IMG/VR virus record: IMGVR_UViG_3300027747_000168
Location: 1 to 27,711 of that record
Direction: 5' to 3' (one strand)
DNA from: a virus
DNA: 27,711 bases
Below, piece by piece: positions 11,670 to 13,621 of this stretch (position 1 is the stretch's first letter; every line of letters starts with the position of its first letter). The notes under the pieces are model-generated. The model worked only from the letters and a program-made list of their open reading frames with translations. It did no database searches and was not told the origin of the DNA. The position numbers and the translations under genes are program-made.

Positions 11670-11722
11670 AATTGTTTGAAACACGGCTAGGCAAGGATTG
11701 ATCCCCTTGTCGAAAAGAGAAC

Positions 11723-11755
11723 CCACCCCTCCTGCCGAGGTTTCTTTTTGGGTGG
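11723..11755 (+). terminator. Stem-loop with T tract between the regulator and the replication gene
   Basis: CCTC (11728-11731) pairs with GAGG (11737-11740) and is followed by TTTCTTTTT. An alternative outer stem pairs CCACCC (11723-11728) with GGGTGG (11750-11755). The two forms share a base and cannot both be complete, so this could act as an attenuator for the downstream replication genes. The inner stem is short, so strong termination is unlikely. Confidence 0.4.
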
Positions 11756-11772
11756 ATCATCAGGGCGTGGGA

Positions 11773-12543
11773 ATGCACTTTTACCAATTTCATATTGGCG
11801 ACTATAAGTCGCACACACATCATCTTTCACCATTAGAGGACTTGGCGTATCGCAGGCTTCTAGATCATTACTATCTTCATGAAGCACCAATCAGGCAACG
11901 TGATATTGCTAGACAGATTGGCTTGCGTGAATATGAACAAGAAGTTTTAACAGTATTGGATGAGTTTTTTGTATCGACAGAAAAAGGGTTTATAAATCCA
12001 CGTGCTGACGAGGAAATAGCCAAATACCGCAAGTTTTCTGAAGATGGAAAAAAAGGGGCGGCTAAGCGCTGGCATAAGGATGGCAATGGGGAGGCTATTA
12101 GCCCCCCTAATGCGACCCCAATAGCAACCAATAACCATAAACCAATAACCAATAACCATAGTATTGATGAAACACCAAAAAAAGAAAGAACAAAAGGCTC
12201 ACGCCTTTCAGCAGACTTTGTTTTGCAAGATGAGTGGGTTGCATTTTGCCAACAGCATCGACCTGACCTAAACCCTGCGGTTGTCTTTGATGGCTTTAAA
12301 GATTATTGGGTTTCCAAAACAGGGTCGGCGGCAACCAAACTGGATTGGACTGCAACCTGGCGAAACTGGGTCAGAAACCAGCGGCAGGAAAAGCCTACCT
12401 TCGCCGACATAGCTAGAGTCACTGTGCCATCTAGATTAGGACGTGATCCAGCATTGGTTAAGCTTGATGAGGACAGCAAGAAAGTTGTGCCGCCAAATTC
12501 TGAAATATTGGCTAGACTGAAATTATTAAGGGGAGTAAATTGA
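11773..12543 (+). CDS. DUF1376-type phage replication protein
   Basis: A 256-residue protein. The N-terminal domain (residues 1-90) is DUF1376: MHFYQFHIGDYKSHTHHLSP, then LEDLAYRRLLDHYYLHEAP. A polar linker (about 100-145) is encoded by an unusual repeat array. The C-terminal part (EWVAFCQQHRPDL, then KLDWTATWRNWVRNQ) resembles the C-terminal domains of phage replication initiators and DnaT-like loaders. The start at 11773 is chosen over 11698 because the family begins at this Met. It is probably the phage replication initiator or helicase-loader partner, as the first large rightward early gene. Its stop overlaps the methyltransferase start codon. Confidence 0.78.
   Translation: MHFYQFHIGDYKSHTHHLSPLEDLAYRRLLDHYYLHEAPIRQRDIARQIGLREYEQEVLTVLDEFFVSTEKGFINPRADEEIAKYRKFSEDGKKGAAKRWHKDGNGEAISPPNATPIATNNHKPITNNHSIDETPKKERTKGSRLSADFVLQDEWVAFCQQHRPDLNPAVVFDGFKDYWVSKTGSAATKLDWTATWRNWVRNQRQEKPTFADIARVTVPSRLGRDPALVKLDEDSKKVVPPNSEILARLKLLRGVN
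12088..12107 (+). other. GC-rich hairpin beside the heptamer repeats
   Basis: GGGG (12088-12091) and GGCT (12093-12096) pair with AGCC (12100-12103) and CCCC (12104-12107), leaving one bulged A and a 3-base loop. Such a strong 8-bp hairpin just before a repeat array and an A-rich tract is suggestive of a replication origin or a translation-slowing element. Confidence 0.55.
12126..12160 (+). repeat. Five tandem heptamers inside the replication gene (iteron-like, candidate origin)
   Basis: Five contiguous 7-base units, AACCAAT, AACCATA, AACCAAT, AACCAAT, AACCATA, fill this stretch, so the 11-mer AACCAATAACC occurs three times (12126, 12140, 12147). An A-rich tract follows (12171-12195). In lambdoid phages the origin lies inside the initiator gene as iterons next to an AT-rich unwinding region; the resemblance is inferred. 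Confidence 0.6.
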
Positions 12544-13355
12544 ATGAGTTGGCTCTTTTCGCAGGCGCTGGTGGAGGAATACTCGGAGGCAAACTACTTG
12601 GTTGGAGAACCGTCTGTGCAGTCGAATGGGAAGCCTACCCAGCAAGCGTACTGTGCGCCCGACAAAATGACGGACTTCTCCCGCCTTTCCCGATTTGGGA
12701 TGACGTTCAAACCTTTGATGGTAGACCGTGGAAAGGACTTGTTGATGTTGTATCTGGAGGATTTCCATGCCAGGACATTAGTGCCGCAGGAAAAGGCGCA
12801 GGAATTGATGGAGAACGATCAGGAATGTGGCGAGAAATGGCGCGGATCATTTACGAAGTACGACCCAAATTCGTCTTTGTGGAGAACTCACCAATGCTCA
12901 TTTCTCGGGGACTTGGACGAGTTCTCGGAGATTTGGCCTCAATGGGGTTTAATGCAAGATGGGGAGTGTTGGGAGCAGATTCCGTTGGTGCGCCTCATAG
13001 ACGAGACAGAATTTGGATTGCGGCCAAACAACGAAAATTTCTTCCACACTCCAACTACAATGGGTCTGGATGGGGGAAGCAATGGCAGAAAAGCACTACG
13101 CAAAAGGTTGATGCCTACGCCGGTATGTCAGGACTCCCGCCATGCTCAGACACGACATTTAAATCCAAATTGCAAGCATTGGGAGAGCAATCTTGGAGAG
13201 GTTTTCGTAGCGGAGACAGGTATTCCGAAAATGCCCGCATCGTTTGTGGAATCAATGATGGGATGGCCGCTCGGGTGGACAGACTTAAAGCCATTGGAAA
13301 CGGTCAAGTTTCCTTATGCGCCGCAGCAGCATGGAGAATCTTAAGTGAATCATGA
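12540..13355 (+). CDS. C5-cytosine DNA methyltransferase
   Basis: A 271-residue protein with the C5 methyltransferase motifs in order: motif I FAGAGGG at residues 7-13; motif IV GGFPCQD with catalytic Cys77; motif VI ENS at 115-117; motif VIII HRRDR at 153-157; and the terminal motif RLKAIGNGQV near 248-257. The target-recognition region (about 165-240) is short. The start is TTG at 12540, four bases after AAGGGGAG, and overlaps the previous stop (TTGA). The stop overlaps the next start (ATGA), so this frame is coupled on both sides. No restriction partner is seen, so it is probably a solitary methylase that protects phage DNA from host restriction. A second long frame runs through the same DNA. 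Confidence 0.9.
   Translation: MNELALFAGAGGGILGGKLLGWRTVCAVEWEAYPASVLCARQNDGLLPPFPIWDDVQTFDGRPWKGLVDVVSGGFPCQDISAAGKGAGIDGERSGMWREMARIIYEVRPKFVFVENSPMLISRGLGRVLGDLASMGFNARWGVLGADSVGAPHRRDRIWIAAKQRKFLPHSNYNGSGWGKQWQKSTTQKVDAYAGMSGLPPCSDTTFKSKLQALGEQSWRGFRSGDRYSENARIVCGINDGMAARVDRLKAIGNGQVSLCAAAAWRILSES
12544..13344 (+). CDS. Second, overlapping open frame inside the methyltransferase gene (possible dual-coding gene)
   Basis: A 266-codon frame, shifted +1, covers nearly all of the methyltransferase gene without a stop. It starts with ATG directly after the replication-gene stop, eight bases from the same AAGGGGAG, a better spacing than the methyltransferase TTG has. The product is not low-complexity: it begins MSWLFSQALVEEY, has DKMTDFSRLSRFGMTFKPL, CGEKWRGSFTKYDP and WPQWGLMQDGECWE, and ends with MGWPLGWTDLKPL. 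From memory, proteins with this GWPxGWTDLKPL ending are found among phage hypotheticals, but I cannot confirm this here. It could instead be a by-product of methyltransferase codon bias. It has no known function. Confidence 0.5.
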   Translation: MSWLFSQALVEEYSEANYLVGEPSVQSNGKPTQQAYCAPDKMTDFSRLSRFGMTFKPLMVDRGKDLLMLYLEDFHARTLVPQEKAQELMENDQECGEKWRGSFTKYDPNSSLWRTHQCSFLGDLDEFSEIWPQWGLMQDGECWEQIPLVRLIDETEFGLRPNNENFFHTPTTMGLDGGSNGRKALRKRLMPTPVCQDSRHAQTRHLNPNCKHWESNLGEVFVAETGIPKMPASFVESMMGWPLGWTDLKPLETVKFPYAPQQHGES

Positions 13356-13621
13356 AAGACTTGTCGCAAACTCAATCCTTAGCCGACTTAAAGACGGTGA
13401 ACAATTTAGCCGATCTACCGTTGACCAAGCACTACGAGATACAGGCGACCTTGCGTCAGTTGGAGGCGAAGTATTGGATAACGAAATACCGCAAAATAGC
13501 GATGGAGGAAGGGAAGTCGGAAGCCTACGCTTGGTGGCAGAGAACCTTATTCGACTTGGAGAAAAAGCGTGGGAAGAAAAATACCGCAGACTTACAAAGG
13601 CGCATGAATGAGATACGCTAA
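13352..13621 (+). CDS. Conserved phage protein upstream of VRR-NUC
   Basis: An 89-residue protein, helical and charged, with TKHYEIQATLRQLEAKYW and then AYAWWQRTLFDLEKKRGKKN near the C-terminus. I recognise the WWQRTL..(I/L)EK.RG pattern as a phage protein that commonly precedes a VRR-NUC nuclease; its function is unknown. The ATG overlaps the methyltransferase stop and the gene overlaps the nuclease start by 14 bases, so the three are translationally linked. Confidence 0.75.
   Translation: MKDLSQTQSLADLKTVNNLADLPLTKHYEIQATLRQLEAKYWITKYRKIAMEEGKSEAYAWWQRTLFDLEKKRGKKNTADLQRRMNEIR

Follow-up and report, generated by a model that had tools for sequence, protein, structure and literature searches.

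A phage locus with a C5-cytosine DNA methyltransferase and a probable second subunit encoded in two almost completely overlapping reading frames

The window analyzed here is the 27,711-base IMG/VR virus record IMGVR_UViG_3300027747_000168 (positions 1-27,711), which carries portal, terminase, head-closure, exonuclease and HNH genes and therefore belongs to a tailed phage. On its plus strand, two long open reading frames (ORFs) share one stretch of about 800 bases: ORF A, a C5-cytosine DNA methyltransferase of 271 amino acids with a TTG start (12540-13355), and ORF B, a 266-amino acid frame with an ATG start that lies inside ORF A in the +1 frame (12544-13344). The two overlap over approximately 98% of their length (266 of the 271 codons of A), with starts four bases apart behind a common Shine-Dalgarno (SD)-like sequence, AAGGGGAG (12528-12535, plus strand), spaced 4 bases from the TTG and 8 from the ATG. 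Both starts fall within the heptamer TTGAATG (12540-12546, plus strand), in which TTG begins A, ATG begins B, and the intervening TGA (12541-12543), which abuts the ATG, terminates both the upstream gene and B's own frame. That upstream gene (11698-12543, plus strand; likely true start at the ATG at 11773) is of the DUF1376/primosomal type and matches PF07120 and phrog_3992. The first-pass annotation of this DNA, which had proposed two full-length products behind one ribosome site, with the second starting directly after the upstream stop, thus placed these elements correctly in the sequence.

ORF A matches PF00145 over amino acids 5-181 only (E = 1.3e-30) and phrog_363 (E = 1.5e-63), and aligns to residues 15-170 of M.HhaI. 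Its catalytic domain (12549-13025, plus strand) contains motifs I-VIII, including the catalytic cysteine of the PCQ motif, Cys77, in GGFPCQ (codon 12768-12770), and is followed near the end of the frame by motif X, RLKAIGNGQVSLCAAAAW (13281-13337, plus strand), which matches LRIIGNGVCPQQA, the motif X of single-chain relatives. The chain does not hold motif IX and the target-recognition domain (TRD) together as a complete C5-cytosine methyltransferase does: motif IX was not found in A's frame in genes of the window type, and the Pfam match ends at amino acid 181. Conservation within A is lowest in the linker that joins motifs VIII and X, and TRDs are expected to vary in sequence.

Viral contigs were scanned with ORF B and, separately, with ORF A, the best 80 of at least 600 candidate stretches being taken from each scan, and the frame of B was uninterrupted over its full length in 121 distinct loci. 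Where loci were picked by A alone, B's modules lay in a single +1 ORF in 75 of 75. The first-pass annotation had cautioned that such openness might be a codon-bias effect, with only A coding and the +1 frame open by composition. The +1 frame of conserved C5 motifs does tend to be fairly open, and the B profile gives weak shadow matches in 6 of 29 phi3T-type genes, which encode monomeric methyltransferases with motif IX in frame. Against this explanation stands the comparison with synonymous codon shuffling, in which the A protein and its codon usage are preserved. ORF B in the window contains no stops versus 3.97 expected (P(no stop) = 0.004; 20,000 synonymous permutations), and 118 distinct homologues contain 0 stops in the +1 frame versus 591 expected, while the +2 frame of the same homologues contains 2119 versus 1793 expected, slightly above expectation. 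The phi3T-type genes themselves have no long +1 ORF and no excess +1 openness.

Among 156 genes of the two-frame groups, a pattern search identified no motif IX in A's frame, and nearly all carry a long +1 ORF; one of the 156, L215, is an MM1-type monomer when read. Twelve apparent exceptions to the motif IX pattern were set aside, as ten carry motif IX when read, having been missed by the regular expression, and the +1 ORF of the other two (L257 and L261) falls just below the length cut-off. Genome matches with stops inside the B match were likewise apparent refutations; the B ORF is open and overlaps A in 9 of 12 such loci, namely those in which both frames were located by the profiles on the strand analysed. 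A homologue combining a broken +1 frame with an otherwise intact methyltransferase lacking motif IX, which would contradict dual coding, was looked for among the homologues and not found.

In a +1 overlap, the third codon positions of A are the second codon positions of B, and A's silent sites should therefore freeze if B matters. Divergence at fourfold-degenerate sites in A was 0.27, 0.24, and 0.23 at amino acid identities of 60-70, 70-80, and 80-90%, respectively, versus 0.61, 0.55, and 0.47 in the flanking ORFs of the same loci. For the same phage pairs at equal amino acid identity the values were 0.215 in A and 0.551 in flanking ORFs, with A below the flanking ORFs in 46 of 47 disjoint pairs (p = 4e-14); monomeric phi3T-type methyltransferases gave 0.47. 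In the Bacteroides-type genes, B starts some way inside A, and the fourfold constraint, weak or absent in the part of A that precedes this start, is present beyond it. At the protein level there is a crossover, in which A is more conserved than B over motifs I-VIII and X, and B is more conserved than A over 13020-13259 (B/A conservation of 0.60/0.35, 0.53/0.29, 0.24/0.12, and 0.55/0.44 across this interval). The switch from A to B coincides with the place where A has no motif IX. The first ~150 amino acids of B are also constrained in the window family and contain no known domain. Both frames are thus under selection, the conservation of the +1 frame being far above both the shuffled and the flanking-gene controls, and the view that only A is coding is almost certainly wrong given the missing stops, the silent-site constraint relative to flanking genes, the higher conservation of B in the motif IX region and the behaviour of the phi3T-type genes. 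The open frame and the constraint together strongly support two full-length products from this stretch.

ORF B matches phrog_1008 (E = 2.2e-22), as do 43 of 43 of its relatives, while a Pfam search with ORF B gave no match. Matches to phrog_26627 and phrog_35493 were obtained as well, which bears out the GWPxGWTDLKPL ending that the first-pass annotation had associated with phage hypothetical proteins. The B family has a conserved C-terminus, TPTxxD ... LNPxWVEWLMGWPxGWTDLKPLE, which in the window corresponds to a putative target-recognition/motif IX module running from TPT...MPTP to GWPLGWTDLKP (13030-13293, plus strand). Within it lies the motif IX-like KMPASFVESMMGWPLGWT (13228-13281, plus strand), for which an alignment gives the family consensus LNPxWVEWLMGWPxGWT. 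In Girafales gp77, a single-chain methyltransferase of an actinophage, the match to the B profile falls between motifs VIII and X in the frame of the methyltransferase itself (independent E-value 7.4e-9). Of 62 loci from a family scan, 39 have the B module in the same ORF as the methyltransferase and 13 have it in a +1 ORF. The order in the single-chain alignment is motif VIII, LPTPxASD, WGKYAPAIxRWE, RLxxxFPEWMMGWPAGWVT, and LRIxGNGVVPQQ, and an AlphaFold2 (AF2) model of one single-chain relative (343 amino acids, predicted template modelling score 0.76) matches M.HaeIII and M.HhaI along their length. As the C-terminal module of B stands in-frame between motifs VIII and X in these single-chain enzymes, B appears to carry the target-recognition/motif IX segment that A lacks. 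A and B together have complementary motif content, with the modules split between the frames. In Mycobacterium phage CloudWang3, Gordonia phage Shivanishola and Girafales, related methyltransferases are encoded either by split genes with partial overlap or as single chains; in Shivanishola the annotated coding sequence (CDS) starts at 1769 and omits the upstream frame with motifs I-VIII.

The joining of the same modules in one frame in single-chain relatives also fits a model in which programmed +1 frameshifting fuses motifs I-VIII of A to the TRD/IX segment of B, with no independent initiation of B. Frameshifting, however, needs no open and constrained B frame across motifs I-VIII from an ATG of its own, and the start region of B is itself well kept: the ATG is conserved across homologous loci, a stop in B's frame directly precedes it in 109 of 117 loci, an SD-like sequence is present in 105 of 117, and the start of A lies at -4 from the ATG in most of the 117. 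Moreover, motif X is in A's frame, so the frameshift model would need two shifts. We consider this model very improbable and favour independent initiation of B.

Double coding of this kind is found in hundreds of phage genomes. Twenty named phages and plasmids carry the A/B pair, with GC contents of 0.36-0.63; they include phages of Salmonella, Vibrio, Acinetobacter, Pseudomonas, Klebsiella, Stenotrophomonas, Microcystis, Synechococcus, Mycobacterium, Lactobacillus (Lc-Nu) and Bacteroides, and plasmids of Leptospira and Acinetobacter, the plasmid search having contributed four records. The pair is conserved across phages and plasmids of Proteobacteria, Cyanobacteria, Bacteroidetes, Spirochaetes, Firmicutes and Actinobacteria, and it occurs in cellular genomes as well, including archaeal metagenome-assembled genomes (MAGs). 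A genome scan with B's motif only yielded 80 cellular loci, which are spread over many phyla and include archaeal MAGs. An overlapping A was present in all 80, in the same relative frame in 79, with motif IX in A's frame in none, and a search of these B-selected loci for stand-alone B genes found none; the A-B pairing is obligate in the loci examined. B matched in 13 of 369 genomes sampled from the class of an Acinetobacter genome. Ten neighbours of cellular copies include integrases, PrimPol, DUF1376 and other methylases, with phage replication genes near some copies, and no restriction endonuclease was recognised among these ten neighbours. Nearly all of the public records examined for carriers (L165-L184) show a single annotated CDS over the pair; in some of them this is B's frame or a fragment, labelled as a hypothetical protein or a DNA methyltransferase.

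Taken together, these results indicate that 12540-13355 is very probably a dual-coding pair encoding the alpha and beta subunits of an orphan, phage-borne two-polypeptide C5-cytosine methyltransferase of the M.EcoHK31I kind. Translation of both products, their assembly, enzymatic activity and biological role are what we infer from sequence. Ribosomes would load at the one Shine-Dalgarno site and start on either the TTG of A or the ATG of B, and in the window reinitiation after the TGA of the DUF1376 gene may also feed either start. A, as alpha subunit, would supply AdoMet binding, catalysis (motifs I-VIII) and motif X, and B, from the ATG four bases further on, would supply the target-recognition segment and motif IX. 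The two products are predicted to assemble into one active C5 methyltransferase, which would mark the phage DNA, most plausibly against host restriction.

Several observations weigh against this assignment. The homology of B's motif IX to HhaI-like enzymes is not significant on its own by hhalign: against MM1-type monomers, KMPASFVESMMGWPLGWT aligns with RKLTPRECWRLQGFPD as the top local match without reaching significance (E = 0.2-0.3), and the argument thus rests on the single-chain relatives. The AF2 model of B alone is poor (predicted local distance difference test 57, with only residues 221-250 above 80), and a Foldseek search with that model gave no fold match. The first ~150 residues of B have no counterpart in the methyltransferase frame of the single-chain enzymes, and the likeness that this first module shows between distant groups was given no weight as independent evidence, because it may be a shadow of A's conservation, as the weak phi3T-type matches illustrate. 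Furthermore, the predicted TRD of M.EcoHK31I lies in its larger subunit (PMC3404938), whereas here the TRD-like module appears in B.

The remaining difficulty comes from Streptococcus phage MM1 1998 (DQ113772), whose record annotates a 'C5 methyltransferase alpha/beta subunit' with beta inside alpha in the +1 frame. MM1 alpha carries motif IX in its own frame, and MM1 beta, at 141 amino acids, ends before motif IX. At this locus (L271) and at loci L304-L382 the C5 methyltransferase is complete, and the annotated 'beta' nested in its +1 frame coincides with strong fourfold-site constraint. Fourfold divergence in the MM1 type is 0.27-0.32 over the nested beta versus 0.59-0.66 elsewhere (at 70-80% identity), and the +1 ORF is longer than in shuffled sequences in 97% of the motif-IX-bearing genes of the MM1-type group. 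Since a complete methyltransferase here coexists with a constrained nested ORF, the overprinted frame must do more than supply motif IX. This, and the constrained first ~150 amino acids of B, would suit a product that is translated without being a subunit, such as the methyltransferase regulator or anti-defence protein suggested in the first-pass annotation, or a host-interaction protein, overprinted on A. We regard this as unlikely, as the segment absent from A sits in B, and in the methyltransferase's own frame in relatives, and as B never occurs without A in the 80 B-selected cellular loci. Carrying, as it appears to, the missing segment, B more likely acts as a subunit with a structural and catalytic part. 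The portion of B over motifs I-VIII may nevertheless have its own function, with the TRD/IX segment perhaps captured at a later stage. One tentative scenario, which we put at somewhat less than even, is that the N-terminal part of a nested +1-frame protein has its own function and is kept even in the MM1 type, and that in the window lineage this protein grew in the downstream direction until it had captured the TRD/motif IX segment of the gene in which it is nested, upon which the overlap became obligate. If this scenario holds, the nested protein would represent a very widespread and old overprinted gene family, mostly missed by annotation.

Immediately downstream of the pair, an 88-amino acid ORF in B's frame (VNHERLVANSILSRLKDGEQFS...; 13345-13611, plus strand) is overlapped by an 89-amino acid ORF in the next frame (MKDLSQTQ...; 13352-13621, plus strand). 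The openness of B's frame through 13611, previously read as a hint of codon bias, is borne out as this separate small ORF, while the codon-bias explanation is excluded. The two ORFs are kept together in 21 viral loci, and the frame of the 88-amino acid ORF has 2 stops versus 13.4 expected after shuffling (8 genes); relatives of the two were looked for in the phage collection and not found. Together, 13345-13621 is suggestive only of a second candidate dual-coding pair.

Long overlapping genes are thought to be rare in prokaryotes, with only a few long ones fully established (PMC9927249). The overlap described here spans ~800 bases, is nearly completely coextensive, and is conserved across phages, plasmids and cellular genomes. 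Should B prove to be a subunit, many of the 'orphan methyltransferases' of phages would be half-annotated, A cloned alone would be inactive, and predictions of specificity would need B. The split of modules over two frames and the single-chain relatives form a natural series for the study of how proteins split into overlapping genes.

Among known systems, M.EaeI is a two-polypeptide C5 methyltransferase, and for M.EcoHK31I Lee, Kam and Shaw reportedly described in 1995 a beta gene nested, in a different frame, within the alpha gene. As far as that nesting goes, the likeness to our locus is close, with B nested in A in the +1 frame and both frames under selection. It differs in that beta covers virtually all of alpha here and both starts lie behind one ribosome site. 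Both M.EcoHK31I and M.EaeI belong to bacterial restriction-modification systems, whereas the present pair is phage-borne, with no recognised endonuclease partner nearby. M.EcoHK31I is a two-polypeptide C5 methyltransferase with motifs I-VIII and X on the large polypeptide and motif IX on the small one (PMC3404938), and the motif layout, compared by description, is similar: A has motifs I-VIII and X, and the B module stands at the motif IX position. M.AquI is likewise a C5 methyltransferase that is naturally divided between two polypeptides, but in that type the second subunit carries both motif IX and motif X, whereas here motif X is in A's frame and IX in B's, and the two genes overlap in different frames. 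The MM1 1998 locus resembles ours in a beta nested in alpha in the +1 frame, with that frame under selection; it differs in that motif IX is part of the alpha frame itself and the shorter beta stops before this motif. CloudWang3 gp91/gp90 and Girafales gp77 share the TRD/IX module of phrog_1008, in a split with partial overlap and in a single chain, respectively, but their motif X is in the frame of that module and not in a separate overlapping frame. The idea is thus not wholly new, as M.EcoHK31I is known and the MM1 1998 record already annotates a nested 'alpha' and 'beta'. What is new, as far as we have checked, is the near-complete overlap with one ribosome site and its breadth, together with the testing of both frames for selection and the comparison, module by frame, with single-chain relatives.
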